The position numbers and the translations under genes are program-made. Shown here one piece after another: positions 11,718 through 56,142 of a stretch of 64,000 nt of DNA (its first letter is position 1; each line of letters opens with the position of its first letter). The stretch covers positions 80,162-144,161 of the forward strand of contig KV918960.1 of assembly GCA_002049455.2 (NCBI GenBank). Direction: 5' to 3'. The notes below the pieces were generated by a model. That model was not told the origin of the DNA, did no database searches, and saw only the letters and a program-made list of their open reading frames with translations. This stretch comes from Porphyra umbilicalis (taxonomy: Eukaryota > Rhodophyta > Bangiophyceae > Bangiales > Bangiaceae).

Positions 11718-12135
11718 TGTTGGACTGTGATACTCGTCGCCGACTCCATTGGCGGTTCGCAGATGGATGATGGTCGGTGACCCTTATGGTACCGCAGATG
11801 GTACATTTGCAAGACGTGGTCAAGTTGCACACATTCGTGATGGGGCATCTTAGGGCGTTACTTTTGGCGTGTTTTGGATTTGATCTTCGCTTTGCTCTAG
11901 TGGCTTTTGATTTGGTGAGTGATTCGATTTGGTGCGAGGGCGTGGGCGTCGGTGTGGGCGCGAGAGGGGGGAGCACTTGGGCCGTTGGGGACTATTTGAG
12001 AGGTGCTCTCGGTTGGGAGAGGCGGGCGAACCTTAGGAAAACCAACAAAGCAAGTTCGAACACACACGCACAAGCTCAAGCTACTGAACCACTTCACCGT
12101 GGTCCCCCAGTCCCTATCCCCACTGCGATCCAACA
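11718..12135 (+). repeat. solo Copia LTR, 418 bp
   Basis: Closely matches the 3487-3904 LTR over its whole length (TGTTGGA...TCCAACA). No primer site follows it and no purine tract precedes it, so it stands alone. The flanking 5-mers (AGACG and GGAGC) do not match. It abuts the minus-strand Gypsy fragment. Confidence 0.88.
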
Positions 12136-12780: not shown

Positions 12781-13473
12781 TGTGACGGTCCGGCAAATGG
12801 CCCCCACACCCGAGGAACCAGATTCCCCGGAAATATGTCCCACTACCGCATATTTCAAATTGTTCCGTTGGCGACCCACTTCTGATCACCTCGTGGCTCA
12901 GCAACTGCAACCGCGATCCCAATACTTCCCTGGGATTCGTATCACCCCCGGGCGGGCCCCTACTTAAGGGCCTAATTTTCCGTAAACCCGACTTGGATTA
13001 TCGACTCATGTTACTCCGCGCCCCTGACCCCGGGGCGCCGCGAGGGTGTCACGGAGCACCCTTCCCGCGCCCGCACTCAAGGCGGTATTCGAAGCATCGG
13101 CCGTCCTCCGCTGGGACTGGCCCCGTAAGCCCTGAGGGGAGAGTTTTCCGAGGGTCCTTTAAGGGTGTCTGAGGAGGGTTTCCGAGGGTCCTTTGGGGGC
13201 GTCTGAGGAGGGTTTTCGGAGGGTCCGACGGGAGCGGACGGAATAAGAGGGCGAGGCGTGAGTGTTGCCTCGAGGCCTTGGACGCGGGCAAGTAAACTTC
13301 CGGTCACACAACTCGTGTTTGTCGCTTAAGGCGCCTTCCCCCGTTCGACGCCGTGCGTGTGTGCTCTGTGGGGTTTTTTTCTGGGGCTGTTATTCCCTGA
13401 CAGGACTACCCGGCGACACGGTCTGGCTCGCCTTCCTCCCTTTTGGGTGGGGTGGGCTGAGCGTGTTGTCACA
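12781..13473 (+). repeat. Gypsy left LTR, 693 bp
   Basis: Starts TGTGACGGTCCG and ends GTTGTCACA. Boundaries are set by homology with the inverted copy at 10614-11270. It holds a short internal tandem of GAGGGTCCTTT/GTCTGAGG units near 13140-13220. Confidence 0.85.
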
Positions 13474-23700: not shown

Positions 23701-24610
23701 ACCCAGAAGAAGCGTCTCGGGGCATATTAACTGGGAGTGCCCAGATCCTGGAATATCCGGGTTTTATCCTGCATCTGTTTCCATAGGGCGGTAGCGGGGC
23801 GGCAGCGAAAGGGTCGACGGGCACCCACGGCGCCGCAGAGTGCGCGAAGGCGTTTGCTGTCGTCGGACCCGGTCCCGCAGGCGCCATCGTCGGCGGGAGG
23901 CGCAGGGTCAGAGGAGGGAGGGACTGCTGCTCCTCCCCGCTGCTCGCCGGCGGCGGCGGTGGCCGGCTGCCGACTCTGCCCATTCTGCCGCCCGCATCGA
24001 GGGCGGAGCTGCTGGCTCTGATTGCCGCCGCCGACGTGGGGGTGCCGCTGACCGCCAATGCGCTGCGTGGAGCGCGCCTGCCGCCCACATCGGCACTCGT
24101 CGCCTCGGACGATGCGGGCCCGTGGGGACGCCACGGCGAGCGCCGCCTGGCAGACGACGACGCGCCGGCCGTCGTCGCGGCGCCGCTGGGCAGCGTCGCC
24201 GGCGTCGCCGGTGCTGCCAGTGCCGCGTCTGTCCCCACCGGCTGGGTCTTGTGCCGGCGCTGCTCGGGCGCTGGGTCGCTGTTGCCGCCACTGGCAGCGG
24301 GAGCAGCGATGGCGGCGAGTCGGCGCTTGACGCCACGACCCGCCGGCGACACGGCACGCAATGGCGAGGCAGACTGGTCGACCGCGTCGGGCGAGACAAC
24401 AGGGGCCACTGGGGCCACAGGGGCCCCGTTTGGCTCGACGGCCGGCACCCCCCCGCCCCAAGCGCCCCCCCCTCCCGAGCCGTCCCTCCCATACCCTACG
24501 GGAAAACTTTGCTGGATATCCAGCTTTTTTGGCCCCGGGATCCCGGAAACAGCCGGATCCGGTGGCCTTGAAGTCCATTTCGGTCGGAAACAGAGGCCGT
24601 TCGACTGATC
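23701..24610. mobile_element. candidate gene-capturing (Pack-type) element with inverted CCCTAYGG borders
   Basis: A 706-bp copy of the ankyrin gene linker (23789-24494) is bordered on the left by the reverse complement of CCCTATGGAAAC (ending 23788) and on the right by CCCTACGGGAAA (from 24494). GGATAT(T)CCAG words follow outward on both sides. The right border is shared with the modules at 40364-40480 and 53201-53307. Outer ends and target duplication are not resolved, so element limits are approximate. Confidence 0.5.
23789..24494 (-). pseudogene. captured fragment of the ankyrin-repeat gene at 60887-64000
   Basis: Matches 61964-62670 in the same orientation over about 706 bp with scattered substitutions. 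It covers the Pro/Ala/Ser-rich linker of the ankyrin protein (for example VSPAGRGVKRR, GASSSARRRS, PPPPPASSGEEQQS). No ankyrin unit and no C-terminal domain is included. The frame is still open within 23639-24676, which also reads into the flanking borders, so a chimeric 345-aa ORF exists. No promoter evidence. Confidence 0.85.
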
Positions 24611-25339
24611 CAGCGGCTCGCAGGAGCGGGCCAAACAGCAAGCATCATTCCAAGCCACCTGAGCGAGCCCCCACAATTGCAGCTGGTCAGAAAATCCAGG
24701 ATCTCGGGCGGTCTGTCGCTCGACGCGCGCTGCACGTGAGGCGATCTTCCGCGCCGCAGTGTGTGGCCCAGATCGCCGGCGCTTGGGCAGCTTTCCCCCC
24801 CCCAGACGCCCATTCCTGATGTGTGCCGCCCGCGCCCCCGTCGTTTAACCAGATCGGCTGCTTCGGCGGCGTTGCAACGGATCTTGGTCGTCCCCACCCC
24901 CCCTCGCGCACACCTGTTGCCCCCGTCCTTGCCGTTGCCCCAGGCACGTATCCCCCCCCCTAGCTTCCTTGGAGCGTGCCCTATGTGAAGGTATGTGGAC
25001 GCATGTGAGACGACTTGCTGTGATTTTTTTTATGCCAACCTTTGAGCTGGATATGTTCGGGGGGACGGGAGGGGGGGACGGGAGAGAGGCGCGGGAGGAG
25101 TACGAGGGAGGTGGAAGAGGAGAGGGGATGGAGACAGGGGACGGGGGCATCTCTCGCTGCGCCGCGTCCGCACTATCGGCGTACAGCCGGACGCCACCCC
25201 CGCAACCTCTCCCGTCGGATTGGCCCATTTGGACGCCGCCGTCACGACCACCCGCTTCACGACCACCCAGATCTCTCTCCGTCGGAGGGGTGAGTAAGTG
25301 GGGAGTGTCCGACTGCCGGAGATAGGAATTGCGCCGTAT
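24611..25339. other. no supported gene; GA-rich stretch at 25060-25150
   Basis: Low-complexity purine-rich plus strand and its mirrored short ORFs. Nothing recognisable. Confidence 0.4.
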
Positions 25340-25378
25340 AGCTTTCACGCGACATTCGCGTGAACATGCCGCGTGAAT
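25340..25378 (+). repeat. left terminal inverted repeat
   Basis: AGCTTTCACGCGACATTCGC begins the repeat. The reverse complement of 39872-39910 matches it at most positions. It includes an internal hairpin, TTCACGCGA-cat-TCGCGTGAA. Confidence 0.7.
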
Positions 25379-25381
25379 GCC

Positions 25382-25440
25382 GGGGGGGGGGGGGGGGGGG
25401 GGGCGCGCTCCGCGCGCGCTCCGCGCGCGCGCGCGGGGCG
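25382..25440. repeat. G22 homopolymer plus (CG)n/CGCGCTC tract
   Basis: Twenty-two consecutive G followed by alternating CGCGCTCCGCGCGC. Such DNA can form G-quadruplex and Z-DNA, and it sits immediately inside the left inverted repeat. Confidence 0.8.
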
Positions 25441-25984
25441 GCCGGATGCCGATATGGATTGCGTCAATCACTAGCATGATTTCATTCCCTTTGTGCCATG
25501 CATGACAGATTCCACCGCAATCTTCATGGATTAGAACCGGTCTCAGGTGTACCGATTTGAATCAATCGATCTCAGGATCGCAAGGCTCTTGGTTTCTGAC
25601 CGCCCCGATCTGCCGCGTTCCTTGACCGGGCCGGGGTCGGGTCGTCGTCGGTGGACCAGTCCCAATCCGCCACCATGGCGCCATCGTGGTCGTGACCACG
25701 TCTGCGCGTCATCGTCTGCGCGCCGTCGTTGTCGAGGCTGCTGCCATGGTGCTGCCCGCTGTGTCCATCGACGGGGGGTCGTTACCCGGTTCCTGCCTGT
25801 AGTTCTTCTCGCCGCAGTAGCCCGGGTCGCTGTACGCGGTGTACGTTTTTTTTTGTCTCGGTGCTTGCCTTTCATTTCCGCTCTAAGGACGATAGTTCCG
25901 GGCGCGTTGGGTCGCGTTTGTTTGGCGAGACGCGTGGGCTTGCGGTGATCATGGGCGCCAATACTCCGGGTACCTCCATCATGG

Positions 25985-26080
25985 GTAAGCTCTTTTCGCT
26001 GACTTGGCTGGTACGTGATCTGCCTGCACACTTTTTCCATGGGCTTTGCTTTTCTTGTTCTATTCGCCATCCGTTGACAG
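25985..26080 (+). other. probable 5'-UTR intron of the 752-aa gene
   Basis: Donor GTAAGC at 25985 and acceptor CCGTTGACAG ending at 26080 flank 96 bp with a pyrimidine-rich end. The ATG of the long ORF follows 3 bp later, so the intron need not preserve a frame. Confidence 0.4.
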
Positions 26081-26083
26081 ACG

Positions 26084-28342
26084 ATGAAGGCCGGTATCGG
26101 CTCAGGGCCCGCCTTGCCGGCCGTCCCCGCCGTCCCCGCTGTCCCCGTAGTCCCCGTAGTCCCCGCAGTCCCCGCCGTCTCCGCCGGCGTTCCCGATGTA
26201 CCTGCCGCTTCCGCCCGCGCGCCCGACGTGGCCACCGAGCCTTCCGTGCCTGTCGTACCCGCCGTGCCAGATGAGGAGTACATGCAGTTCTTCCGGTCGT
26301 TGGGCATTTCGGACAGCACCAAGGTCGCCTTCCTCGCTCGCCTCCTGGAAGCCTTCCATGAGGTCGCCATGAAGCTGGACGAGCACCTGTCGCCAACAGG
26401 AGCCATCTTGCACGCCGCCATTAGCCGTATGTGTGAGGGTGACAGCGCCATGGGCGCCCCGCAGCACCGATGGATTCGCATCGTCGACCGGATCGGCTTT
26501 TTTTCGGACGAAGACGAGCACGCAAGCCGCGTCATCAACCTGGGGCTTTCGTTCGCTTACCGGCAGAAGGAGCCTGACGCCGCCGCCAAGGCCATTGCGC
26601 TGAGATTGGAGCGCACGCGCGCCGCTGTCGGTCGCAATCGTATGGAGGGCGCGGCACTTGAGCCAGACCACTCGGGGGGAGCAGCGCTCGGGCAAGGCGA
26701 CCTGGCGGGCGCTGATGAGTTTCCTGCAGGGGGGCTCGTCGTCCGTAACGATCGACAAAACGAGCCCAAGGCGTCGGGAGGCGGGGTGATGGCGGCCAAC
26801 CTGTCTGATGAGGATGGCCTCGACATTCCCCTTGGCGGTGCCGTCGTGCGTCGAGATGTCGCCAGGCAGCCAAGCTCCCTTGGCCATGGAGAGCTACCTG
26901 AAGGTGGGGTCCTCGTCGTCGCTCGACGCGACCCCTCTGGTGGCGCTGCTTCCGAACACGCATCAGCCGCCCCTCCGGGAGCAGCGGCTGCCACGGCCGC
27001 TCCAGCCGCCGCCGCCGCCACCGCTGCCGCCGCTGATGAGGCACAAGCCGCGGCGCTTGTGGAAGTAGCAGGTGCCGCCCATGCGACGGACCGTGACACG
27101 CCTCCGCCGATGGTCAAGCCCTCCGACGAGGCCGTCTCCTGCGTCACCCGTGTTTTGGACCTGATCGAGGAGCGCGACGATTGCAAAGACGTGTTGCGCA
27201 AGCTACACGTGGATGGCCTGGTCTGCCTGGCTCGCCTTCATGGTGGTCAGGATGTGGAGGGGGTGATCGTGGCCAACAACGTGGAGACGGACTGGGCGCC
27301 CGTGCGCACCCTACTCAAGAAATGGTGGCCTTCATGGAGCATCCCGTCCGGATCTCCACCCATGACGCCCATCCCCGGGACAGCCGCGGCTGTTCTCAAC
27401 CCTCTGCGCAGAGCGCAATCGTCCAACTGGGTGGTAGAAGTCGACATGACCGCCATGAACGTCGCCATCCGCCAGTGGTCCGGCAAGTCGGAGCGGTACT
27501 TCAAGGTGAAGGAGCTGACGGACACCATCTACGTCGTCCGCATGGCCCCCTCGCTCAAGCCACCGATGGCCGCCACGATTGCCTCCATGCTCCTGGTTGG
27601 AACGTGGGACCCCACCTTTTGCTCACTCGTCACGCAACTGGCGACGGCCGGACGTGCCCGCACCCCCCGTGCAGCGCCACTTGAGGAGGCCTCTTGCCAC
27701 AACTTCGAGACGGCGGGCGTGAGCGAGCCCCCCTCCTTGCTGTCGACGCGAGCGGTTGGTGGTGTCGCCGCGTTGACCACACCGCTGGCACCGGCGCCCG
27801 ACCATCGCTCCCAAGCCGACCTCATGGCTGATCGTCAAACTGAGATCGACCAGCTCCTTGCGGTTGACAAGAGCACCAATGCAGCAGCCAACCGCGCCCG
27901 CCGCATCGATGCTCGTCGTCGGCAGGCGGTAGCGCCTGGATCAAGCGCCCGTGAGTCTGCTGGTCGTGGCCGGGCGCGCCCACTACCAGCCCCAAGTCGG
28001 CGCAAGAAAGGTGCGCCTCCAAGCTCCAGTGGCTCACGGTTGAGGGCTTCGCATGGCGGCACTGCCCCCCCGCGGAAAGATGGCACGTCAAGGGTGGATG
28101 ATTCGTTGACTGTGAGCCAAGTGACGGCAGCCCCCCGGTGTCCGGACGAGCTTCTGAGTGCGACCGAGCCCGGCCGTGACGAGTCCACTTCCGCGGGTGT
28201 CCCTATTTCCTCGTCAGTGCGCCCTTCTGGACCTGGGCTCCGCCCCGATGCTTCTTTGTCTCAAGCTTCTGTTTTACCCGAGTCGGATGTACCACTGCTG
28301 GATAATGAGGAGGATGAGGATGGGTCTGATGGAACCGACTAA
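26084..28342 (+). CDS. 752-aa protein of unknown function, transposon cargo
   Basis: Not recognised. The ATG at 26084 opens a 752-codon frame that ends in TAA. Residues 1-60 are PAVPVVP repeats. Residues about 65-165 look globular (EEYMQFFRSLGISDSTKVAF, then HRWIRIVDRIGFFSDEDE). A low-complexity Gly/Ala/Arg stretch follows to about residue 350. A second globular block, about 355-520 (VTRVLDLIEERDDCKDVLRK, WVVEVDMTAMNVAI, RYFKVKELTDTIYVVRMA), precedes a basic Arg/Ser-rich region (about 590-670) and an acidic tail (DNEEDEDGSDGTD). The charge pattern suggests a nuclear, nucleic-acid-associated protein. It converges on the Pif1 gene (18 bp between stops). It could be a DNA-binding accessory protein of the transposon, but no motif shows this. 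Confidence 0.6.
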   Translation: MKAGIGSGPALPAVPAVPAVPVVPVVPAVPAVSAGVPDVPAASARAPDVATEPSVPVVPAVPDEEYMQFFRSLGISDSTKVAFLARLLEAFHEVAMKLDEHLSPTGAILHAAISRMCEGDSAMGAPQHRWIRIVDRIGFFSDEDEHASRVINLGLSFAYRQKEPDAAAKAIALRLERTRAAVGRNRMEGAALEPDHSGGAALGQGDLAGADEFPAGGLVVRNDRQNEPKASGGGVMAANLSDEDGLDIPLGGAVVRRDVARQPSSLGHGELPEGGVLVVARRDPSGGAASEHASAAPPGAAAATAAPAAAAATAAAADEAQAAALVEVAGAAHATDRDTPPPMVKPSDEAVSCVTRVLDLIEERDDCKDVLRKLHVDGLVCLARLHGGQDVEGVIVANNVETDWAPVRTLLKKWWPSWSIPSGSPPMTPIPGTAAAVLNPLRRAQSSNWVVEVDMTAMNVAIRQWSGKSERYFKVKELTDTIYVVRMAPSLKPPMAATIASMLLVGTWDPTFCSLVTQLATAGRARTPRAAPLEEASCHNFETAGVSEPPSLLSTRAVGGVAALTTPLAPAPDHRSQADLMADRQTEIDQLLAVDKSTNAAANRARRIDARRRQAVAPGSSARESAGRGRARPLPAPSRRKKGAPPSSSGSRLRASHGGTAPPRKDGTSRVDDSLTVSQVTAAPRCPDELLSATEPGRDESTSAGVPISSSVRPSGPGLRPDASLSQASVLPESDVPLLDNEEDEDGSDGTD

Positions 28343-28360
28343 ATAATGAATGTATAGATG

Positions 28361-31138
28361 CTACAAACGTGGACTGTCTTGGTACAGCTGCAGAGCGGCC
28401 GGGTCCGCAATCACACGGCTACCGCAAAAAGAGCGTACGTGCATGCGCATCTTGTCGGGCACTCGGCTCATTGCAGCCAGCACCATGCCCGACCCAAACG
28501 CCTGCCCCACATCCAAAACAGCCTCTGACAAGGTCAAGCTCTGCGACCGGTGAACAGTGATGCCCCAACCGAGAACAAACGGAACTTGAACACGCACAGC
28601 AACAGCCCCCGGTCGCGACAGAATGCGAGACTCAAACTCGACGGGTGGGCAACACACTTCCACCCAATCGGCACCCGCCCCTCGCACTCCCTGCCTACCC
28701 GAACGAGTACCCTCAGTCAACTCGTGCTCCTCAAAGCGCACGACAGGGGTCCCGTCGGCCTCATAGTCCACCACGTGCCCGATGCTACCGTGGTAGAGAC
28801 CAAGCCCGAGGAAGTGGTTAGACGTGAGCATGACACGTGCACCACGGCAATGCTCCACCCGTCGAGGAGCCACACAATCGACCAGAGCGGCATCGCGCGC
28901 GTTCGTCGGCACGCTACCGAGATCAGGCGGGGACACGTCACGGTCCCGGTTCGGGTCCTCTTTCACGTTGTGGATGGCAACGGAGACAGTCGGTGGCGCG
29001 CCTGCACACAGCCGCCTCAAGCACGCCTCGTTGTGGTTGTCGACGTCCTCATGCCGCGGCATGATGTGCAACACCTTGTACTGGAGCGCCTCGTACGCCT
29101 CATCAGTCACCGAACGCTCGTCCATGAGCGACTGCACGGCGTCCGTGCACCGCCCAAACCGAGCGTCGTGGATGGCCGCTATAAAGTCGGGCTGGCCTTG
29201 GCGGTGCACGCGCGTGAGCTCCAAAATACCGTCACCGAACAGTGACTGCCAGCAATGGCCCGCAAATGCCAACCTGCCAAACGGGGGACGCAACTGCAAA
29301 AAGTCACCGAAGGCGTAGACGACGGTTGGCGGCTTGCCCACCCGGGACAGTCGCAGAAGCTCGTGCATGACGTCGAGGTTGTCGGCGGGCACCATGGAGA
29401 TCTCGTCGATTATTAGCACGTCCACCTTGGCGAGCCGCTGGGAGATCGGCCGCCACCGGTCAAGCGACAGAAGGCGAGCGGCTTCTTGCGCCGGGTTGTC
29501 CGACTGCATCTTGTAGTCCTTGACGAAACCGAAAAACGAATGGCACGTGACGCCCTTCGCGGTCTTGGCCGCGCTCCCGGTCGGCGCAACGACCACGACG
29601 GCACCGGTGCCCGGCAGCCGGCTGCGCACGAAGACGGCAAATGCCCGCAAAAAGGACGTCTTGCCCACACCAGGACCACCACTGACAAACGTGCTCAACT
29701 TGCGCCCGAACAGACTCTGAGAGACAGCAGTCCAAGAGCTGTCGGCCGCCATCCGCGTCAGCGGACCTGGCGCCGGCGGCTGGCCGCCCCTTAATGAGCG
29801 GCCACCAATCACGTCGGCGCAGCTCGGTGACGGTGAGGCTCCAAGACCGGGGTCGCCACCTTCGCCTGCAGCGCCACTGGGGCGGTCGTCAACGCGGCCG
29901 CTCCCCACCGAAAGCGAAGAGAAGCCTGCCTTGTCGGCCGACGACGACGCCACCCGCCGATGATCGCCAAGCGCCGCGTCACGGCGCAGGCCCTCCTCCA
30001 GGTCGTTTTGGTCCCATGTGGCAACCGACTCCGCCACCATGCGGTGGATGCTCTCGAAAGTAAACGCTCCCTGGCCCGGGTCGCCGGGGGCCACCCAGGT
30101 GGGGTTCTTGTCGTCCGACGGCCCATTCTTTTTGCCGCACCCACGCGAGCGCTTGCTACCGACGTTAGCCGACTGGAAGCTCGTTCCACAGCCAGAGCGA
30201 CGCGAGTCACGGGCGCCATTGGCAGAGGCTCCGACCGAGCAGACCTCCGCCCCACACGGGCAGGGTGAAATAGCGGGGGCGCCGCGGCTTGGGCCTGCGC
30301 CACGAGATGACAAAGGCGTCGTCGCCGTCGCAGTAGAAACACCTTGGTGCTCCGACCCGTCGAGGAGGCGGTTGTGCCGGGGAGCGACCGCAAGAGCTGC
30401 ACAGGTCACCGATGGCATCCTTGATGGGCAACCGTCACCAGCCCACCCCAGACCACTCGCCGATAGCGCTGAGGATTTGAAGACCGTAGGAGGTGCGGTG
30501 GAGTGGCCGAACCGAGCGCGCTTGTAGACGGGGGACACGTCCGCGGACGGCGGTGACGACGACCCCACGTGCGGGCGTGCCGGAGGGATTGACGCTGGCT
30601 CAATCTCCAGCGGAGAGCTGGCCACGGGCGCCGGCAACGCCACCTTCTCGACAGGTGCGGCACTCGCAAGGGTAGTGGTCAACAAAACCCGCTGCATTGC
30701 CGAACCTGCGTCATTGGCGAGCCACTTGTTGGCGTCTGCAGCGACTGAAAAGCTTGCCGCCACACACAGCGTCGACGCCGTCGTCTGCACCAGCTGCACA
30801 GCACCACCAACGCCAGAGGTGTTGATCTCAAAACAAGCGCGGGCGCCTTGGGCAATGATGGCAAGCCACGAAGATGAGCTGGCCGCTGCCGATAGCGTCC
30901 CAGGAGGTTGACCGACGACACCAGTGGCCACGGCCGCAATCGCGTCGGGATTGGTCAGCCAGCACATGGCCACCTCGGACGACCCAAACGAGTGGCACGC
31001 CAGCACGCTGCCAAGCTCCATGGCCAGCAGCTGATGACCGATGCTGCTGGCGTCAGAGGAGCGGAGGAGGACCGAGGTGAGGGGAGTGATCACCGCGAGC
31101 AGTGAGCGCGAGCCCACCGCCGCACCAGCCGGTGGCAT
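28361..31138 (-). CDS. Pif1-family DNA helicase
   Basis: Superfamily 1B 5'-3' DNA helicase. Counted from the ATG at 31138 it is 925 aa. About 480 N-terminal residues are Ala/Ser/Gly-rich with a Cys-containing patch (SPCPCGAEVC) and a basic patch (GSKRSRGCGKKNG). Helicase motifs follow: Walker A SGGPGVGKTSFLRAF (about residue 483), motif Ia VVVVAPTGSAAKTAKG, Walker B VLIIDEISMVPADNL (about 570), motif III YAFGDFLQLRPPFG, an LTRVHRQ motif, and C-terminal GWGITVHRSQSLTL (about 860), the Pif1/RecD2 signature. All core motifs look intact with no frame break. The frame is open upstream to 31561, but only from GTG; 31138 is the first ATG with a purine at -3. Helitrons carry Pif1-like helicases, but no Rep domain is present here. 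The neighbours suggest a role in transposon replication or repair. Confidence 0.88.
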   Translation of the reverse strand: MPPAGAAVGSRSLLAVITPLTSVLLRSSDASSIGHQLLAMELGSVLACHSFGSSEVAMCWLTNPDAIAAVATGVVGQPPGTLSAAASSSSWLAIIAQGARACFEINTSGVGGAVQLVQTTASTLCVAASFSVAADANKWLANDAGSAMQRVLLTTTLASAAPVEKVALPAPVASSPLEIEPASIPPARPHVGSSSPPSADVSPVYKRARFGHSTAPPTVFKSSALSASGLGWAGDGCPSRMPSVTCAALAVAPRHNRLLDGSEHQGVSTATATTPLSSRGAGPSRGAPAISPCPCGAEVCSVGASANGARDSRRSGCGTSFQSANVGSKRSRGCGKKNGPSDDKNPTWVAPGDPGQGAFTFESIHRMVAESVATWDQNDLEEGLRRDAALGDHRRVASSSADKAGFSSLSVGSGRVDDRPSGAAGEGGDPGLGASPSPSCADVIGGRSLRGGQPPAPGPLTRMAADSSWTAVSQSLFGRKLSTFVSGGPGVGKTSFLRAFAVFVRSRLPGTGAVVVVAPTGSAAKTAKGVTCHSFFGFVKDYKMQSDNPAQEAARLLSLDRWRPISQRLAKVDVLIIDEISMVPADNLDVMHELLRLSRVGKPPTVVYAFGDFLQLRPPFGRLAFAGHCWQSLFGDGILELTRVHRQGQPDFIAAIHDARFGRCTDAVQSLMDERSVTDEAYEALQYKVLHIMPRHEDVDNHNEACLRRLCAGAPPTVSVAIHNVKEDPNRDRDVSPPDLGSVPTNARDAALVDCVAPRRVEHCRGARVMLTSNHFLGLGLYHGSIGHVVDYEADGTPVVRFEEHELTEGTRSGRQGVRGAGADWVEVCCPPVEFESRILSRPGAVAVRVQVPFVLGWGITVHRSQSLTLSEAVLDVGQAFGSGMVLAAMSRVPDKMRMHVRSFCGSRVIADPAALQLYQDSPRL

Positions 31139-31195
31139 CCCAGCGCGGGGGCGCGGAGCAAGGGTGAGGATGGGGGCGGGGGGGGGGGGGGGGGG

Positions 31196-33758
31196 AGGTA
31201 GCGCCGCGACAAACAAGCGCGGAGGGGGGGACAGCCCTAAACTAAAGGATGCCGTGGGAAGGGGGAAGCAACCCGACCACAGCCCCCGCCCGCCAAGCAG
31301 CAATAAGAAGCTGGTGGGTGGGTACCACCGAGAGCAGCAGGATGGTCGGGGCAGACAGTGCACCCGCGCGAGCGAGACGGGCAGTGGGGGGGGGGACGAG
31401 CTCGGCCAGTGGGCGCCTGACCGACACACAGGGAGAGCGCCAGAATGGTGCCAAATGCGAGTCCCAGTGGGGGGGGTCGGGACGGCCAACAGCGGCAGAA
31501 ACGACGCCCAACTGAGGACACTTGAGCCCACTTTCGGGTGGACCACCGAGGCCCAGCCCACATCGGAAGCTTAACTACCAAGCCAACAGCAGGACTTCGA
31601 TTGACCCATTGCCACAAACATTGATCCAGGGTCCTCGTTGACGCCGTTTCCAACAAACTTGTTTTAACCGAATCAGGATCTGCCAGCGCCAAGTGTCGTC
31701 GAAAGCGACAAGCGTCGTCCCCCGACCTCCAGCAAGCGCTTCGCCTGAACAAGAAATCTGGAGCATGGCCGGATCCGTGGCACGAACGGAAAACGGAGTT
31801 TCAAATTCCAAGTCGTTGAGAGAGCAATATGATGTCCACAATCGCCAACTTCGCCGTTTACAGTTGCGACCTGCGAAAGAATGGATTGGACAATCCCTTT
31901 TCTGGAAATTGTGCGCACCCGACCAGATCGCAGTCGGGCCGTTCTTGCCCAAACAAGGCTGTTTCCCAGTTGCAGATGACGGCTCGGGGCCCCGCGATAC
32001 GCACAGCATTTGCTGGATAACTTGAACGGGATATTCAAATACGGCAACATGACCAAGTTCATGGTCACATTGTGATCAGAATCGGTGCCATTTTGGCCAT
32101 TGCCGAGTTCTGATTCAATGTGATAATCGGTGGGGCAGGCTGAGACGCCAAGAGGGCATCGTAGGCCCGACCGAATATTCTTTTTGGAGCTGCAATCAAT
32201 CACGTTTTGATCATCACACATCTTGAGCGAACTTCACCGTCTGGTGGGTCGTCCGTGAAAGGTCTGGCTTTTGCGTGATCCTTTTCGAAGGCCATTGCCT
32301 GTCATGGATCGAGTACGGACGCCGGTTTCTGGCCTTCTGAGGGGGGTGCTGGTTGCTGCTGGGACGCCGGAACAGCTGGTTTCCATCGATTCTGGCCCTC
32401 CTGAGGGGGGGTCCCGGTAGCTCCCAAGTGTAGGGCGCGCTACCTGCTGTGCGCCTTAGGCCGTGGTACCCCTCCACCTGGCGCCCTTGCCCCCCGCCTG
32501 GCACGGCGCACTGACCCCCCCACGACACAATCGCATAGCGGTAGCTCGATCCGCGGCGCCCCCGCATCCGCCGCTCCAACAGCGCCACGCCAGCTTCTAG
32601 TGACTCATGACAGAGCCATCCGCCTCTCGCCCCACCCCGACATCCTATGCTCGTCCTCCAGCTTGTCCGTCCGTATCGCTGTGTTGGTTGACAGTCTTTC
32701 AACTCTCCCCGGCCGTGCTTCTGCCATGCATGCCGCACAGCGTCAGTCTCTGCGCACCGTCACCTGCGCGGCGAGATGGGGCTTTACCGCAATGACCTCC
32801 CCATACATAAGACTCTGCAGCTGGCAGTGACCCACAGCCGCGAGCATACTTGGTCCTAAAGCGGTCCGTGAGGTCAGATAGGCGATGGCTGTTGCGCACA
32901 CTTGCTCCAAACGTGGGCTGTGAAACCTGAGAGCTGATGGCAGTTGGCGGACTTGGGAGAGACATGTGGCAGAGTGGCAACGTTCCACAGCGCTGAGCTG
33001 GGATGTGCAGCCCGAAGCTGACACTCCGCCATTGACATGGGTGGCAGCGCCAATCGTTAGTCCTGGTGCCGTCACATCGGTAGCCATGTGCAAAAGTGTC
33101 GCAGAGGAGGGGACCATCGCCATGCAGGCGGTAATCACTCGCAGTGTGGGGATATGTGTTTGACGAACGGCGGGCAATGAAGCAGCGAGTGAGCAGATGC
33201 CATTTACGGCAGCGTTGGGCAGTCTTGCTGTGACGGCCAGGCTGCAAAAATGGGATGAACAGAGGCTGGCGGGATGGGATCGATGGGTGGGGGGCGGTGG
33301 TGCATGCGTCTACGCGCTCCGACTGCACCTCTGACCGCATTGCACCCGTCGGTGCTGTCCGACGCAGCCGCCCTAACGCACCTTGCGAGCTCATGCGGAG
33401 GTCGGCCGCCGAATGGTACCGCTGCCACACCCCGGGAGGTACTTCCCCGTTTCTGGACATGAACTCTAGCCTGGCATGCTGCTCCATGTGGGATGGGGCA
33501 CAGGTGGCTGATCAATATCGTGCCGGTCCGGCGCTTACGAATGCAGAAGACTGCAGCGGGCTGTAGGGGTTTGGCCTGTGGGAGGCGGCTTGACGTGCCT
33601 GCCACAGTGATCAGACTGCGTTTCGGCATGGCTGCTTGCAGTCTGTTTACTGATCGTTCGAGTCATACGGGGCAGTGCCCACGCGAGGTGACAACGGAGA
33701 CAACGTATATAGTGCTTCACGAAAGGTCCCCCCTCACAACACTACACACAGAGCACGA
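31196..33758. other. gene-poor interior of the large transposon
   Basis: About 2.5 kb without a supportable gene. Short minus-strand ORFs (31575-32009, 32699-33487) lack motifs. A short direct repeat (CTGAGGGGGG) occurs near 32340 and 32402. An 18-G run lies just outside at 31178-31195. Decayed coding sequence cannot be excluded. Confidence 0.4.
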
Positions 33759-36700
33759 CTATTCCTTGACGGCCGTGCTCGATTCGTGCACCGTGGGCAG
33801 AAGGCTACAGGCATCCGCAATCACCAAGCTATCCACATAAAGCACAGCGCTTAGGCGCTGCCGCAATACAGGAATGTCCTCTTGGCCAAAGCAAAGAGGG
33901 GCACCAAGTGAGAAACAATCAGCTGCCGCCAGCACAAACACACCACAGCTACCGCCATCAGACTGACGTGGCAGGCCGAGGTCCATCTCGCCCTCCCAGA
34001 CCTCTATCTCCCATGCCCGAGCCACATCCTTCCCCAGGCGGGCAGCCACTTCATCCGACAGCCAGCGCCGCGCCGTTGCTAAGACGTGCGCCGCCCCAAC
34101 GCCGTGCATCGAATCGTAGTACTGGAACTGCCGCGCCTGCACGTCGATGACCACCAGCACCCAGTGCAAGTTGCCGACGTTGACGGGGATGATCACCCGG
34201 TCGATGGAGCCAATGTCCAGCCCGTTCTTCCAACCCCACGTGCGCACGCCATTGTAGTCATAACAGCCGGCTCGCTCCAGCAAGCGCGAGAAAAAGAACG
34301 TGTTGAACATGTAGGTCCTGGGACATGACGCACGCTCGCCCGGGTTCCCCACCGACGTCGAGCACAGCAGCTTTGCCCGATGGTTGAGCAGCGCCACACA
34401 AGAGTTCATCAACTCATCATTCAGCCACCGTTCACCGACCAACAGCCGGAAGTCGGCGACGGTAAGAGTGATCTTGGCCTTGTTCCCTCTCCGCACGTGC
34501 GCCGACGGCGGGCGGTCTGTAACCAACGCGTTAACCGCCGCCACGTGCTCGCCGCATAACGGCAAAGTACTGATCGACGACCACAGCGGCTTATCCGACG
34601 AACACCTCATCGCCACCGCTGCAACGGCAGCGTCGTCGGGCAGAAGGGTGGAGCCGCCTGCGGCACCGTCGGCGTCATTGGTGACCACGGCGGCTGCGTC
34701 GACGCCAACCGCATCAGCGGAGGGCGTTGGCAGAGCGCCCAACTCGGGCAATATGTCCGCCTCGGCCGAGTGCGTCGGCTGGCCAAGCTTCACGGCCAAG
34801 GTCTGCTCGGTCTCGCGGCGACCGTCGTCAGCAATGGACGCTTGACAGAGGCAGCTTGATCCCCGCTCACAACGGCGGGAGAGTTGGCTGTGGAAGAACG
34901 GCGCAAGAGGAATGTGGTCGTTTTCAGCCTTGGGGTTGGCCGAGGACAACCGCTGCAGCTTGCGGATGTTCATCATGGCGACCTGCACCATCTTGTGCGT
35001 CATGTACGTGGCCGGCTTCATGTAGGCGAGGCTTGTCCTGTTCGCCACTGCGATGGAGTGGGACACCTCCGCCGCCTGGGTGGCCACGCCCGCCGTGGCC
35101 CCCAAGCTTTCGTCCGGCATGTAGATCGGGGAGCAAGTGTGGGTGATTGAGTGGGGTCGGTCCAGGATGCACCGCACATTGTGGTCGCGCAGGATAGGGC
35201 GCACGCTCCGGAGCGCGTTCTTGTCCAGCTTGCAAGCGACATCGTAAAAGATGACCTTGGGAAGTTGGGGAAACCGCTCCAACACGATGGACAGCGCCTC
35301 CCCGACGCTCTCAGCACGAAAGAGACACCGAAAGCCAAGCGTGATTACATGCGGGCACACGACGTTGAAGACGCCTTGGGTGCTGCCACACTTGACGGAG
35401 AAAGCCTTGTTGCACGCGTCGCCGTCTCCCTCCACGTCCGCTGCATGCTTGTCCTTGCCTTTGTACCCGACTCGCCGCTTGAGCGCCTCGCTGTCCTTGA
35501 TGCCCGGGCGCACCCGCTCAAGCCCTGGAAAGGACTCGAAACTCAGCAACGGGTTGTCCAAGTCGCCGGCGGGTTTGGTAGCGCGCCACGCCGCGTAGTC
35601 GGCCGGCGTGGGCCGGCCGCCCCACTTGCGGCAGTAGTCGGCGTTGACCCATCCCCGATCGAGCGCCTCCTTCTTGTTGGCGGCGGCCGCGAAGAGCTTG
35701 TCGACATCCTCCTCCATCTCGACGGCGCGCAGCAGCGTTGCGCCCAAAGCGTAGCGAAAGTGAGCGTCCTCGTCAATCTCCTTGGCGAACCAGCCCACAA
35801 AGTTGGTTAGGAAACCGATTCCGTCAACAGCCTCCGTCAGGTCGCGCCACATTCCGGCACTTTGCAGCCGTAAAGAGTTGGCCAGCAACCGCGCCGCCGC
35901 CTCGTCGTGCCCTTGAAACATTCCCGTGACGGTCTCACCCAACAGGGCTTGGAGGAACGTGCGGACATGGAGCCACGCCCCATCGTCACGCTTGGGGTAG
36001 TTCTCAAAGTCCGGCGAGCAATGGCCTACGCGGTCGCGCCACGAGTCCGACGGGAGTTTGGCGGGGGTGCCTTTGCCGCCCAACGTGATGTTGCCGTCAT
36101 CGTCCTTGCGCAGCTTGGCCTCCAGGCTGGTACTGGCCGCTGGCGCCTCAGGGTCCGCTTCAGTGGCGCCGCCAACAGTCGACGCAGCTGATGAGGCCGA
36201 CTTGCCCGCAGGTGGTGCTTGACCAGTGGGCGTCCCGCTCGCCTCCGCACCCGTGCGGCCGTCCTTTGTGCCGAACGGGAAGAAGCGGAAGAACAAACGA
36301 GCAGCGGCCGTCTCCACGCACGCCCGGTCGTTCACCGCAATGGTCTTATGCCACGAGTCGAGCAGCAGCGTCTGCAGGACCGTGAGGGCCGCAGCTGAGT
36401 GGAGCACCTTGCTGATGGCGGCACGCAGTTGAGCAGACTGCACGACGCATAGCACCGACGCCGCAATGTCGAGCACTGGCACCTCCTCCTCGTACCGGGC
36501 GGGGTTGGCATCGTCTGGGTCGGTGCAGACCAAGGCTTGCCCGTCAATGACGACAAACTCAGGGTTGGGGCCACAAACGGGGCAGCACGCCGCTTCCGCA
36601 GGGATGACGAGCGTCCTCAGCATGGCCGTTCCGAGTTTGACCACGTCTTGTCTCCGCAGCGCGAAGGAGAAGATGTCCGACGTTAAGTGTCGCGTCGCGG

Positions 36701-38535
36701 CCGTGTAGGTGGTTCGCGCAGTGATGATGTAGGAGTAGAGTTTGTCGAGCAGCGCACGCGTAAACACGAGCCACCGACGCTGCTTGTCCCGCCGCCGCAG
36801 GTTGAAGAGGCCGTCCGAACTGCCGTCGTACTCCACATGCCGCTTGCAATCCTCCCCGTCACACACCCAGCGCCCGACGAGCATCTTCAAGTCAAGAGCA
36901 ATGCACAACACGACAAAGCCAATCAGCCACAGACAAGAAGCAAAGGAGCAAACGGTCAGAAGGGAACAAAGAGTCGGCAAGCACCCCTTGTGCACGAACA
37001 TCAACAGCACGAGTGAAACGGTTTACACATGCAAGGGAAGAGTGCAGCGACCAACACACCTCAATAGCAGGCGCGCTGGGATGATGCGTGTGTAGAACCG
37101 CGGGCTCCTTGATGATGGTATGCCGCTCCTCCCGCAAGCGCCCGCAGCTGCCGCAATACCGCTCCACAGGTACAAAGGTGGGAGGGTACATCAACCCGAG
37201 CTCGACGAAGCGGTGCATACTGCTGCTGATCACGTCCACGTCGCACGCCCGTGTGCCGCCGACATTGGAGCACCGCCCCGCGAAAATCCCGCGCCAGTCG
37301 GCCGTTCGTGCCCACATGTCCCCGGACTTGAACTCACCGAGGCAGGGCAACAGGTTGCGGCGGACACGCGCGGCCACGGTTGCCTCAGCCGCGTCGCTGC
37401 CCGCACGATCCGTGTCGCCCGGCTCCGACTCGATGCCAAAGTCCTCATCGGCAGGCCCACGGGGCACCGAGGAGCCATCGACGGGGGCGGGGGGCTTGGT
37501 CTTAATGATCTTGGCAGCGGGATCTTTGGCAGCGTCTGAGGCGTCCATTGCCCGGCGCTCGGCGTTGTAGGGACGCGCCAAAACAACGTGGCCGCACCGC
37601 GCGCGAAACCGGCGGCAGCTCGGGGCAATGCAGGTCGCCACATTACCCGCGGTGAACGACACCAGCGAGAACACGGATCGGTATAAGACCACCCAAAACC
37701 GCATCGGCCCGTACTGCTGCCGGCACACGAAGTTGGCGGGTGCTGCACCCAGGTGCATCCGGTGCCAAAACTTGGAGAGCGGGATGCCATCACGTGTCAA
37801 ACATGCCCTCAATGCGGTCGTGTGCTTGCAGACGCAGCTCCGAGATGAAGCGGAGAGGAACAACGCGTTTTGCGTGCCCGCAAAGCAAGAGCAAAGGATG
37901 CCCCCACGGTGGGAGGTCCAAAGGACGGCGACGTCCGACTTGCCGCTGCCGACGCGCAGCAGGATCGCCCGCGACCGCGACTCGGGGTCCCCGACCATCA
38001 CGGCGCTGACCGTGCTGGCGCGCCTGCCAATGGGCGTCGACGACGGCAGCCCACAAGCTCGCCTCACACAGGCGCTCAAGGCCTCCATCATGCGCGAGTC
38101 CAAAGCGGGTGCAGGAGCACGACGCGACGAGGCACGACGCGGTGCCGCACCAGCTGAAGACAGGACGTCGTCGACACCACCGCCATCGTCCTCGCAGTCC
38201 GCCCCTTATGCAGGTCCATGAGCCAGCGGCCGCCGGCGCTTGTCGCCCCGCGTGCGGCTGTGCGCCGCGCCAGCGCCCACTTGGGCTGTCGCCAGAGGTG
38301 TGGCCCGCACCGCCGGCCGTCGACAGCCGCGGGCGCGCACGCGGGCGTTCCATGTCGGGTCCACAGGCCGAGACTCCGTGCCGGCACCGCTCACGGTTGC
38401 CGGGGAGCCGAGAGTGCCTGATGGCAACAATGCCAGCCGGTCCATAAGACCGGACAGGGCGGCCGGATCCCCCAGGAACGGAGACACCACAGGAGGGTGA
38501 AAGCGCCGCTTCCGCGGCGGCCCCTCGTCAGCCAT
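33759..38535 (-). pseudogene. KDZ-type transposase fused to a C-terminal Ulp1-like SUMO protease
   Basis: About 1532 codons from the ATG at 38535 (G at -3 and +4; PPRKRRFHPP may be a nuclear signal). One in-frame TAA lies at 38206-38208 and one intron at 36885-37059. N-terminal Cys/His clusters (CSC...CVCKH about residues 214-240; CIAPSC...CGHV) resemble the cysteine clusters attached to KDZ transposases. After the intron come WVCDGEDCKRHVEYDGSSDG, CPVCGPNPEFVVIDG (probable first catalytic Asp about 606), GVFNVVCPHVITLGF and KVIFYDVACKL (second Asp about 1040), the HMGXB3/KDZ pattern. The C-terminal 230 residues are a C48 (Ulp1/SENP) peptidase: NLHWVLVVID (His about 1399), YYDSMHG (Asp), LPRQSDGGSCGVF (Gln, Cys about 1471), all catalytic residues present. 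The TAA may be a recent nonsense change; the rest of the frame is clean. The gene ends in TAG. Confidence 0.82.
36885..37059 (-). other. intron in the KDZ transposase gene, 175 bp
   Basis: Donor GAG/GTGTGT at 37060/37059 and acceptor TTGAAG/ATG at 36885/36884 on the minus strand. Splicing joins ...APAIE to MLVGRWVCDG in frame and skips the in-frame stop at the end of the upstream ORF. It matches the expected W-x-C...YDG...DGLFN block. Confidence 0.7.
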
Positions 38536-38852
38536 GTCGGAAAATCGTGAACCACACCATCACCAGCAGAAGCCTCCAAGAGGGTCTCCAAAACGGCGAT
38601 AGCAACAAACGCCAAAATAGGGAAAGGGGGGGGGGTACAAGAACGAAGGGGGCGGTCGCGGACGCGCAAGGGATGGGAGCGACGGCCGTACCGAGGGGGA
38701 ACGGCCCACGACAGAACGATCGGCGCAAAAGGGACGGTGTCGACGACGGTGGTCACCGGAAACGCGGTCCGTCGGGCAGACAGCCCACACACAGACACGA
38801 CAGAGCAGCGTACAGTGTAACCAACAGACAGTCATGCAAACGATCGCTCACA

Positions 38853-39485
38853 GGCCAAAACAAGTGCGTGCTGGGGGTGCCCCAAAGGGGCCACAAACGG
38901 CTGTGAATGTTTCCCGTGATTTCATTGGTCGGGTGGCGGACGCGCGCGGGCGACGCGGACCGCAAGGAATGGCGGCACCATTTGCGGGCCCCCCAGCGCC
39001 GCAGTGAGCCCCCCAGGAGATACGGAACCGCGTACCGGCCAAAACAGGTGCGTGCTGGGGGTGCCCCAAAGGGGCCACAAACGGCTGTGAATGTTTCCCG
39101 TGATTTCATTGGTCGGGTTGCGGACGGGCGCGGGCGACGCGGACCGCAAGGAATGGCGGCACCAATGGCGGGCCCCCCAGCGCCGCAGCGAGCCCCCCAG
39201 GAGAAACGGAACCGCGTACCGGCCAAAACAGGTGCGTGCTGGGGGTGCCCCAAAGGGGCCACAAACGGCTGTGAATGTTTTCCGTGATTTCATTGGTCGG
39301 GTGGCGGACCGAGGCGGGCGGTGACGACCGCAAAAAATGGGGGCGCGGGTGGCGGGCCCCCCAGCACCGCAATCCAGCCCCCGACAGATTCGAATTCTCC
39401 CACCTGCCGAAAAAGGTGCGTGCTGGGGGTGCTCCACAGTGGCCACAATCGCGCGTCGATGTTTGCGGCGTTGTCATTGGTTGTT
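38853..39485. repeat. tandem array, about 3.5 copies of a 183-185 bp unit, upstream of the transposase
   Basis: Units start near 38853, 39036, 39221 and 39406, each with (A)GTGCGTGCTGGGGGTGC and, about 75 bp later, a TTCATTGGTCGG or TCATTGGTTG box (CCAAT reversed). The first three are nearly identical; the fourth is partial and diverged. Lying upstream of the minus-strand start at 38535, the CCAAT boxes could serve its promoter. Confidence 0.85.
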
Positions 39486-39871
39486 CGTCCCAGTTTTTTT
39501 GGCAGCTCACCCTTCGTGGTTTTTTGGGATCTCGGGGACCCGTTCTTGTGGGACCGATACAGTATCGTTCGTGTCTGAACGGTCCCGCCATGGGCCTGTT
39601 TCGCCCAGACATCTGTTCGACAAGAGTAGCCTCGTTCCCCTCTCAGCATGCTCTGGGGCATTGACATGACGAGTGTCGGCCTGATCAGGCGCCTGACGCG
39701 GCCTTCCTTTAGTGTCTGTAGCCCCCCCATCGGATCTGTGTCGGTGCGGGGTGCTGGTGTCTGGCACGTATCCGGTACCAGGCCCCCGCCCAGGCGTGTT
39801 GATAGGGGTCTCGGCAGGTCGGCACCACAGCGCCCGGCCTGTGAATGCTTCGATCTGATTGGCGCATTTTG

Positions 39872-39910
39872 TTTCACGCGGGCCGTTCACGCGAATGTGG
39901 CGTGAAAGCT
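39872..39910 (-). repeat. right terminal inverted repeat
   Basis: Ends ...GGCGTGAAAGCT. On the minus strand it starts AGCTTTCACGCCACATTCGC and aligns with 25340-25378. Confidence 0.7.
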
Positions 39911-40363
39911 GATGCGCCCGTTTCCTTAACGGACTGCCGGGTTGTTTTGTCTGAACTGGCCACTGACCTGTACACGCCGCTCTGCTTTTGGCTCTGTTTC
40001 TGCACCTCATTCTGTGCTATGGTGTTTACCGTACGTTCCTGTACTTTTTCTGTCTACATCTGTCTGCTCTTCTTGTGCCTTGCCTTTTCTTTGCAGGGGG
40101 GGGAAGCGGGCGGGGGCTCGGGGCGTTCGTGCCGCTCGCTTCACCGGCTCATGTTAATTTCCACTTGCTCGATTGCACTTGACTGTAGGTTCACATGGCA
40201 GCACTAATAAATACCATTCAAATCAACTACTATAAGCAACAGTGTCAGAGGACACTGAGAACCAATCAGGTGTGTGCTTACAGTGAAGTCAGGAGCGTTG
40301 TGAGCCAACCAAAGTGCCATCAGATCAAGCTTTTTTCCTGGATCCTTGACGACGGGAGGGCCC
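39911..40363. other. no supported gene; AT-richer spacer
   Basis: Contains a pyrimidine-rich tract ending TTTCTTTGCAG near 40096, which resembles a splice acceptor, followed by a G run. No flanking exon could be recognised. Confidence 0.35.
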
Positions 40364-40480
40364 CCGCGACCGGAATACGGCGGGTCAACTTGGAGCCTAC
40401 AGACGGAAATATTTCTCCTGTGAGTGTCAGATCGGCGCTGTTCAAAGTGGCTGGATATCCAGGAAATATTTCCCGTAGGG
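40364..40480 (-). repeat. 117-bp terminal module, copy A
   Basis: Begins CCGCGACCGGAATACGGCGG and ends at its inner edge with GGATATCCAGGAAATATTTC then CCGTAGGG. It is an inverted match, roughly three quarters identical, of 53201-53307. Confidence 0.8.
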
Positions 40481-42285: not shown

Positions 42286-45200
42286 TCACGCGGCCACAAC
42301 GTAGTCGCTAACGCCAAGTCGAGGATAGTTGACGGCGCCTGCGACGGGTGGTTGCTCAACCTCGCGCTCCAGCTGGACCACTAGGGTGACGAGAGAGGCT
42401 TCAGTCTCGTCCTACCACTTCCACTCGCGCCCAAAGGCATGGAGATCACGGGCTCTCTTCAACGCCTCTGCCCAATGCTCGCAACCTTGAAGGGCAACCA
42501 CCATCCTCCACGTGGTATTAGCCCACAACTGCGGGGTCGCCTCCCGCGTCCGCACCTCGAGTGCGCGCCGGTAGCACGCCACCGCCTCCTCCCAGTTGGC
42601 CACCTTGTCGCCGAACACCCGCTCCGCGTACGCCGTGCCCATAGAGAACTGCACCGTGGCCCATTGCTGCGCATCATCCTCTCGCGTCATAATCTCGAGG
42701 GCGTCCCGGTAGCATGCTAACGCCTCCTCCATGGTTGCCGCCGCGTCGCCGCTGGTCCGCCGCCTGAGCGCGAAGGCCAGATTGACCTGCGTCGTTAACC
42801 ACTCCACCGGCGCTGTCTCCCGCGTCCAGACCTCGAGTATGAGCCAATAGCACGCCACCGCCTCTTCCACGTTCGCCGCCTGGTCGCCGTCCGCCCACTG
42901 CATACATGTCCTGGCCATGCTGTACACCGTCTCGGCCCAGGAATTCGGCGTCGACTCCCGCGTCCACACTTCGAGTGCGCGGCGAAAACATGCTTTCGTC
43001 AGCTCCATCTTGCCCGCGTTGTCCTCTTTGCCGCTGCCCACCTGCGACCTGTAAGCATGGGCCAGGCAGACCTGCATCGAGGCCCAGCGCAGCGGCGCCG
43101 TCTCCCGCGTCCACACATCGAGTGCGCGCCGGTGGCAAGCCACCGCCTCCTCCAGGTTTGCCGCCTCGTCGCCGTCCACCACCTGCGCATACGCCATGCC
43201 CATGCGTTTCTGCGTCTCTGCCCAGGCACTCGGCGCCGTCTCCCGCGTCCACACCTCGAGTGCGCAGCGGTAGCACGCCAACATCTCCTCCTTGTTGGCT
43301 TGTTTGACGACCTTGTCGCCGCCCATCCGCAGCTCATAAGTTTCGGCCAGCTCGAGCTGCGTGGTGGCCCACTTGTGTGGCATTGCCTCCATCGTCCACA
43401 CTCTGAGGACGTGCCGGAAGCATGCCGCCGCCTCCTTCAAGTTGGCCGCCTTGTCGCCGTGAACCCGCTCCGAGTACGCCAACCCTAGACAATGCTGGGT
43501 CCGCGCCCACAGATGCGGTACTTCGTCTTGAGTCCGCACCTCAAGGGCGCGGCGGAAACACGCCACCGCCTCTTCCAAGTTGGCTGCCTTGTCGCCGTCC
43601 ATCCGCTCAGCGTACGCCATTCCCATCTTTTGCTGCGTCAATGCCCATTGCAGCGGCATCGTCTCACGCGTCCACACCTCGAGGGCACACCGGTAGCACG
43701 CCATCGCGTCCTCCATGTTTGCAGCCTTGTCGCCATCAACCCGCCCAGCGTAGGCCGCGCCCATGTCCAGGTTTGTGTCGGCCCATTGCAGCGGCGCGCC
43801 GTCCCGCGTGCGCACGTCGAGAGCGCGCCGGAAATGCGCCAATGCCTCCTCCAAGTTTGCCGCCTCGTCGCCGCCTTCCCGAATCGTGTACGCCGCACCC
43901 AAACAGTGCTGGGTCTCTGCCCAGGCGAGCGTCTCCTGCGTCCGCACCTCCAGCGCGTACTTGTAACAGCGAACTGCGTTCTGGAAGTTGGCCTCCTTGT
44001 CGCCATTGACCCGATACGAATACAGGTTGCCTAGGTCGTTCTGCATCTCGGCCCATAGTAACGGCGCCGCGGCTTGCGGCACCTCATCCAAGCCTCGCCG
44101 CAGCAGGATGGAGGCAGCCTCCTGGTTTGCTGCCGTCTTGCACCCCTTGAGATGGAGGAAGGCCATGGCCAGACCCTAATGGGCGGCACCAAGCAGCACC
44201 GGGGAGTCGTGCACCGAGTGATCTGTGTCATCAACGATAGCTTGTAGCGACGTCAGCACGAGCCCCACGTCAGCTTGGTGCCCGGCGAGTGACCCCGTCC
44301 GCACACGAGCAGCGTACCACTCATCAGTGACCAAAGAGGCCAGCGCAAGGACGTCCTCACTTGCCGCCGCATGCCGCGCCACGTTGTTGTACCAGTAGCC
44401 TTCGTCAGCTGTAGCCCAAAAACAGTAGCCTAGCCACCCATGCGTGTCCATGTCGTCTGCGGGACAATCCCTGGCAAACTCATCCACCAACCGCTGATGG
44501 GCGGCAGCGAGGTTCTCATCCAACAAGCTGTGGGCATAGCCACAGACGACCGGATGAATGACGACACCCGCTAGGTACCCGTCAGCGACCTCTTGATGAA
44601 TGAGCCCGGCCCGCACGATAGCATCCACGAGCCGAAGAACGCCAGGGTCCGCCTCGCTGCTGTCACTACGCCATCGCGCGAGTGAAGGGCTACTGCCCTC
44701 AGTCGAACCACCGACGACGCCCAGTTGAGGTCGCCATAGGTGATAGAGCACGTTCACACCAATATGCTCGTTGGCGGGCAAGATGCCAACTGCTGCAAAC
44801 GCCCTGCGGCACTCGTCGTCAGGAAGTAGCGCTCGACTCTTGTCTAGCGTCGCTCGCACGGACCGCATCGGGTTCAGGTCTGTCAAAGGACGTTGAAAGG
44901 AGGAGTCCGTCCATTGCTGCTCCAGCGCCGCCACTACCGGCCGCCACATTCCGCAGCGGGCCGAGAGAAGGGACGCGACGATGCTCACAGACTGAACATG
45001 GCACTGCGTCAGGTCGAGCACCTGCCGTACCCACGTGGCCTCCTCCTCCGCCGAGAAAATGAGCTTGTTCTTGGTTAGCTGCTTGCCGATAGCTCTTGCC
45101 AGCAGTGTTCGAGCATCGTCTTGTGGCCAGGAGCTGATTGCCAATCGCATTGCGCCCGTCACCAAAGCGACGACCGATTCGGACCGCGTGGTGAACAACA

Positions 45201-53200: not shown

Positions 53201-53307
53201 CCCTACGGGAAACTTTTCCTGCATACCCAGCCACCTTAAAATGCGTTGATCTGACACCCACAGAATAAATATCACCTCGAAGTCGATCCGCCGTATTCCG
53301 GTCGCGG
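53201..53307 (+). repeat. 107-bp terminal module, copy B
   Basis: Starts CCCTACGGGAAACTTTTCCT and ends CCGTATTCCGGTCGCGG. It is an inverted match of 40364-40480. Confidence 0.8.
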
Positions 53308-53450
53308 GTCTACGAACCCCTACTTCCCATGTAAGTCATTTGTATGTTCGTACCCATGTAAGTTTCCTTAGATGCAGCCATGTGAACATGTAAGTCTTCC
53401 ATCTTGGTTTTCCTATACTCTGCCCCCATGTCCCCACCCCCTCCACGTCC

Positions 53451-56121: not shown

Positions 56122-56142
56122 CCCCCCCCCCCCCCCCCCCCC
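56122..56142. repeat. C21 homopolymer
   Basis: Twenty-one consecutive C on the plus strand, inside the 55259-56921 element. Confidence 0.9.

Follow-up and report, generated by a model that had tools for sequence, protein, structure and literature searches.

Do two short inverted repeats that face each other across 14.6 kb of the Porphyra umbilicalis genome mark the ends of one transposon, and if so, what are a Pif1 helicase and an orphan gene doing between them? The question is posed by a window of 64,000 nt (contig KV918960.1 of assembly GCA_002049455.2, positions 80,162 to 144,161 of the forward strand), a eukaryotic, transposon-rich stretch of 63.0% G+C to which all positions below refer. 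We regard it as probable that the interval is a large, probably autonomous cut-and-paste transposon of the KDZ (Kyakuja-Dileera-Zisupton) kind. Specifically, the proposed element is Zisupton-like, is about 14.6 kb long, carries Pif1 helicase and orphan genes, and lies inserted in a second element of ~1.37 kb, here called element X.

The ends provide the first line of evidence. The window contains two inverted-repeat arms of 38 nt that agree at 34 of 38 positions (89% complementary) and have 14,495 nt between them, which bears out the repeats of about 39 bp that a first-pass annotation had placed 14.6 kb apart. Each arm consists of three 8-bp sites, TTCACGCG/CGCGTGAA, at 13-bp steps, the last site of the right arm having one mismatch. 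The exact 8-mer, counted on either strand, occurs five times in the 64,000 bp, and all five occurrences fall within the arms. As judged from its sequence, this three-site architecture has the look of sites bound by a transposase, and we infer that the arms are putative recognition sites for the transposase predicted below. The pair has an ungapped score of 26. That score was reached in one of 300 dinucleotide shuffles made in 1-kb blocks, each represented by its best ungapped pair anywhere in the 64 kb (median best score 18); in 10 local shuffles, the best inverted pair scored at most 20. The arm pair ties for tenth among the inverted repeats of the ungapped window scan, and stronger pairs exist.

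Between the arms, three large open reading frames (ORFs) and a tandem array were reported at first pass, and all four are there; the array has 3.2 units of 184 bp. The third ORF (33759-37001, minus strand, 1080 aa) is probably not a whole gene but the second exon of a longer one. An ORF upstream of it, overlooked earlier, joins exon 2 in frame via a predicted 175-nt intron to give a putative transposase of 1,385 aa whose frame is open except for that intron. The protein unites in one frame a KDZ domain match (Pfam PF18758, E 4e-05 and 2e-05, below the Pfam cut-off) and a Peptidase_C48 domain (1.6e-25), in agreement with the proposed fusion of a KDZ-like transposase and an Ulp1-type protease. 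It contains the motifs YDVAC and AAEVSHS, which may be the equivalents of the catalytic D, D, and E residues of the KDZ family (RNase H fold). The LHW, YYDS, and SCGVF stretches of the protease align with SENP1 (5.6e-23), and presumably hold the histidine, aspartate, and cysteine of the Ulp1 catalytic triad. Cysteine pairs, CDGEDC and CPVC, are located in the transposase as well. In exon 1, a CxC...CxH motif resembles a SWIM finger by eye and has no Pfam match at E up to 10. Pfam reports no MULE or integrase domain in the transposase, and an AlphaFold2 model of the KDZ core was too low in confidence for use (pLDDT 41.5).

The helicase and the 752-aa orphan, each a single open frame, lie between the same ends as the transposase, as the first-pass annotation had stated. 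It was also correct in recognizing a Pif1 helicase: the Walker and later Pif1 motifs are all present in order, Pfam assigns AAA_30 (9.3e-15) and PIF1 (3.7e-10), and the best solved relative among Protein Data Bank (PDB) sequences is PIF1 chain 6hph (3.5e-27, across the core), presumably human PIF1. Pfam matches of the helicase ORF comprise helicase and AAA families only, with no HUH/Rep nuclease. Compared with phages, the helicase matches 27 records, all at less than 60% identity and 29.4% at the best place; among the 20 of these 27 records that were listed, 10 are annotated as helicases. The orphan scores as coding by codon usage; scanned as a whole ORF with E allowed to reach 10, it matches no Pfam family. 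A Tox-WTIP match on a piece of it was rejected as chance (E 0.082, 20 residues), and a structure predicted without relatives for a 232-aa piece was too uncertain for use (pLDDT 42.2).

The remaining interior is poor in recognizable genes. Codon scores are non-coding in the 2.6-kb gap from helicase to transposase (31.1-33.7 kb), and the three ORFs of at least 150 aa in or reaching into this gap have no Pfam match. All 17 ORFs of at least 150 aa inside 25319-39931 were scanned whole against Pfam; beyond the helicase and transposase, they yield only a Collagen match on an antisense ORF, rejected as chance (E 0.0058, below the cut-off). The same 17 ORFs include no DNA polymerase family, DNA polymerase B among those sought, and no Rep/HUH domain. 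Thus, with no polymerase match inside the element, the earlier suggestion of a self-synthesizing transposon is unsupported. The left end holds no significant relative of the 184-bp tandem unit found near the right end.

Where, then, does the element begin and end? No duplication directly abuts the arms at 25340-25377 and 39873-39910. Their flanks (~115 bp per side) share two direct repeats of at least 7 bp, one of 9 bp and one of 7 bp. The 9-bp repeat, GACTGCCGG, at 25311-25319 and 39932-39940, is a candidate target site duplication that escaped the first-pass annotation. Taken as 8 bp (GACTGCCG), it lies symmetrically, 21 nt outside either arm; a symmetric 8-mer within 40 nt arises in 0.16% of random window position pairs (Monte Carlo, 0.0016). 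Within the outer 21 nt, AGGAA stands at equal distance on both sides. The most likely extent of the element is thereby placed at 25319-39931 (14,613 bp), with borders predicted from one copy. A second candidate duplication, the 6-bp match TGCGCC by the arms, was rejected for its unequal offsets (4 versus 2 nt) and further discounted because ~4% of random pairs show a 6-mer that comes within 2 nt of symmetry.

Several observations count against a complete KDZ transposon with these borders. First, with 23.9 and 24.8 bits, the KDZ matches fall short of the cut-off of 26.6, and they span 65-161 of 217 positions. Second, Pfam gives no support to the KDZ-type cysteine clusters announced at first pass: with E allowed to reach 10, neither exon 1 nor the 678 aa of exon 2 ahead of the protease matches any CxC family. 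A CxC cluster is recorded for some KDZ members, and we do not consider it obligatory for the whole group. Third, the symmetry of the direct repeat was spotted only after the fact, and a 9-bp direct repeat anywhere in the ~115-bp flanks has an estimated, not simulated, chance of ~0.09. Fourth, the outermost 21 nt of the proposed ends share just AGGAA plus scattered bases, agreement so poor that it would be unusual for a terminal repeat. Fifth, the element is known from one copy, that in the 64,000-nt window. Relatives were sought with single proteins, using six 8-residue words each, so that these scans reach close relatives only; within that reach, the transposase, orphan, and helicase have no relative in viral contigs, and the transposase has none in genome contigs. 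The end sequence has no relative in viral contigs, nor the inner end in genome contigs. Among phages, too, the transposase has no close relative. Finally, the outer inverted pair of element X competes with the inner arms for the status of true element end.

A sizable, though lesser, chance attaches to an alternative that differs from our reading in the role of two genes alone: the helicase and orphan could be passengers, either captured host genes or a second nested element, with no part in transposition. In published work, most giant transposons of Ectocarpus, KDZ elements included, contain nested insertions, and extra genes are frequent in them (PMC12477816). The best match of the helicase among solved chains is a cellular PIF1, and between it and the transposase lie 2.6 kb devoid of coding signal, both as a passenger origin would have it. 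Opposed to this are the open state of both frames within the same ends and the inverted pairs around them: of the 62 pairs, 25 were listed, and among these 25 only 25418/31134 brackets the helicase-orphan block alone, a pair that is low-complexity G+C. If the helicase is a passenger, the locus would be another instance of a giant transposon capturing a gene.

The second alternative concerns element X, whose nested outer repeat (24494-24524 and 40450-40480), not reported at first pass, encloses the inner arms. Its 31-bp ends (CCCTACGGGAAA...) match at 28 of 31 positions. A further copy of the right end, at 53201-53308, agrees with 40363-40480 at 76% over 118 columns, and this second right end argues that element X is a real repeat family. 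Sequence common to the left end and the other ends is confined to 31 bp; such 31-bp ends with unlike inner ends are the pattern expected of a transposon family with terminal repeats. To the left, positions 23787-24495 are a 95% copy of 61962-62671 (710 bp, part of an ankyrin-repeat gene), and the left border of element X lies within 2 bp of where this copy stops. The simplest reading of this sequence arrangement is that element X, 1,366 bp long, was the target of the KDZ insertion. The true transposon could instead be the outer unit, 24494-40480 (15,987 bp), the inner arms being subterminal transposase binding sites. The 28/31 match, the second right end, and the stop of ankyrin homology at the outer end all speak for that possibility. 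Nevertheless, we think it unlikely: no direct repeat immediately flanks the outer pair, the ankyrin homology of the left flank does not resume in the right flank, the direct repeat lying beyond the inner arms would be left without explanation, and the outer pair, taken alone, is weaker than the inner one (score 22, reached in 22 of 300 shuffles).

The last alternative, which the first-pass annotation had itself raised, is that the pairing of the arms is fortuitous or the arms are unrelated, the genes being accidental neighbors; a single copy in a window crowded with the inverted repeats of other elements lends it some color, but the single shuffle in 300 that matched the score and the common three-site layout at 13-bp steps in both arms make it very improbable.

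How might a KDZ element bounded by the inner arms move? The 1,385-aa transposase would recognize the three 8-bp sites, with their 13-bp spacing, at each end, bring the ends together, cut ~21 nt beyond the arms, and insert the element at a target cut with an 8-bp stagger. Its fused Ulp1-type protease would probably take SUMO off proteins of the host or of the transpososome. As for the helicase, it is most likely a cellular PIF1 that was captured, and it may assist in filling or repairing the donor gap, or in replicating the G-rich, repeat-rich element or its G-rich ends. These SUMO and repair/synthesis roles are extrapolated from the enzyme families, and activity throughout is predicted from sequence. 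If other copies keep the gene set, the element would be a cut-and-paste transposon equipped with a helicase and a SUMO protease of its own. It would then let donor-site repair and host control of giant DNA transposons be tested. A bolder and rather doubtful version is that a KDZ lineage has acquired its own replication or repair helper, with the Pif1 helicase and orphan as a conserved core. The helicase would restart or complete donor-gap synthesis in a manner like break-induced replication, so that a copy is left in place by cut-and-paste. The Ulp1 domain would permit this by steering the SUMO pathway.

Table 1. Positions in the window of the proposed KDZ element, its parts, and element X.
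Feature	Position	Strand	Remarks
Proposed whole KDZ element	25319..39931	.	14,613 bp between 8-bp direct repeats; borders predicted from a single copy
Candidate target site duplication GACTGCCG, left	25311..25318	+	9 bp counting next G
Candidate target site duplication GACTGCCG, right	39932..39939	+	
Left inverted-repeat arm	25340..25377	+	8-bp sites at 25344, 25357, 25370 (13-bp steps)
Right inverted-repeat arm	39873..39910	-	Sites at 39873, 39886, plus 39899 with one mismatch
Orphan ORF	26084..28342	+	752 aa; codon score +0.064 in frame, five other frames negative
Pif1 helicase ORF	28361..31138	-	925 aa; helicase core from ~residue 470
Transposase exon 2	33759..36884	-	KDZ core plus C-terminal Ulp1 protease; in-frame codon score +0.159
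Predicted GT-AG intron	36885..37059	-	175 nt; splice site placed by eye
Transposase exon 1	37060..38091	-	344 aa; open frame; SWIM-like CxC...CxH motif; codon score +0.087
Tandem array	38853..39448	+	184-bp unit x 3.2, close to right end
Element X left end, 31-bp terminal repeat	24494..24524	+	
Element X right end	40363..40480	-	Last 31 bp (40450-40480) pair with 24494-24524
Element X right end, second copy	53201..53308	+	Opposite orientation

Elsewhere, the window holds Copia polyproteins and ankyrin, TPR, NB-ARC, and Harbinger-type transposase genes. The Harbinger-type ORF, at 1-1017 on the minus strand (Plant_tran 6.8e-59), extends off the window. At 42412-47355, also on the minus strand, an NB-ARC ORF is followed by a TPR-repeat ORF, possibly a single STAND-type receptor gene. 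Positions 10614-13473 form a fold-back-like element with arms of ~650-700 bp that are 78% identical; inside it, 11716-12137 (422 bp) is 92% identical to 3485-3906. Two adjacent terminal-repeat elements, 55259-56921 and 56949-57679, have arms of 59 bp and 38 bp and each start GCGCAGTG. A minisatellite of 22 17-bp units occupies 53449-53824. The whole window has no tRNA and no Rfam family reaching the gathering score.

How does the proposed element compare with known transposons? Like some published KDZ elements, it exceeds 10 kb and has extra genes. KDZ elements of up to 30.3 kb occur in Ectocarpus, extra genes are present in many giant families, and a KDZ element of 31.7 kb has transposed in Chlamydomonas (PMC12477816). 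Because large KDZ elements with extra genes have thus already been described, a KDZ element 14.6 kb long that carries accessory genes belongs to a known kind, and the new transposon class suggested at first pass is not warranted on present evidence. The putative KDZ-type core, the terminal inverted repeats, and the long multi-exon transposase predicted here are further likenesses: published KDZ transposases can exceed 1,300 aa (PMC12477816) or reach 1,400 aa and are multi-exonic (PMC9297572), a range into which the predicted two-exon protein of 1,385 aa falls.

The candidate 8-bp duplication agrees with the 8 bp of Zisupton (PMC12730594) and of Cryptococcus KDZ1, an element of ~11 kb with 241-bp repeats (PMC12810828). 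Target duplications are 7 bp in Kyakuja, which is without inverted repeats (PMC12730594), and 4-8 bp in Cryptococcus KDZ2 and KDZ3, which measure 9-10 kb (PMC12810828). Nematode Zisupton copies are reported to have inverted repeats without target duplications (PMC9297572). The ends differ from those of Cryptococcus KDZ1-3, whose inverted repeats are 139-241 bp (PMC12810828), in being 38 bp long and set back 21 nt. A CxC zinc cluster is described for Cryptococcus KDZ1-3 (CxC1) and platyfish Zisupton (CxC7).

The combination of enzymes can also be placed among known systems. A search of open-licence literature found no paper naming KDZ with Ulp1; the founding papers, Bohne 2012 and Iyer 2014, fall outside that scope. 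One paper in that literature mentions Pif1 alongside KDZ; in the fungus it describes, the two are distinct gene families, each expanded. MULE and Ginger DNA transposons carry an Ulp1 protease, as does the element described here; unlike theirs, its transposase has no MULE or integrase domain match. Helitrons, in turn, carry a helicase of the Pif1 type. They pair it with an HUH nuclease (PMC12730594), whereas the present element has no Rep/HUH match, possesses inverted repeats and a KDZ-type transposase, and encodes its helicase as a separate gene. Finally, fungal KDZ elements that carry TET/JBP offer a parallel for a KDZ element with an accessory enzyme gene, the accessory there being a TET/JBP dioxygenase and here a Pif1 helicase (PMC12730594). 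Should further copies share these genes, the accessory enzymes of KDZ transposons would extend past TET/JBP.

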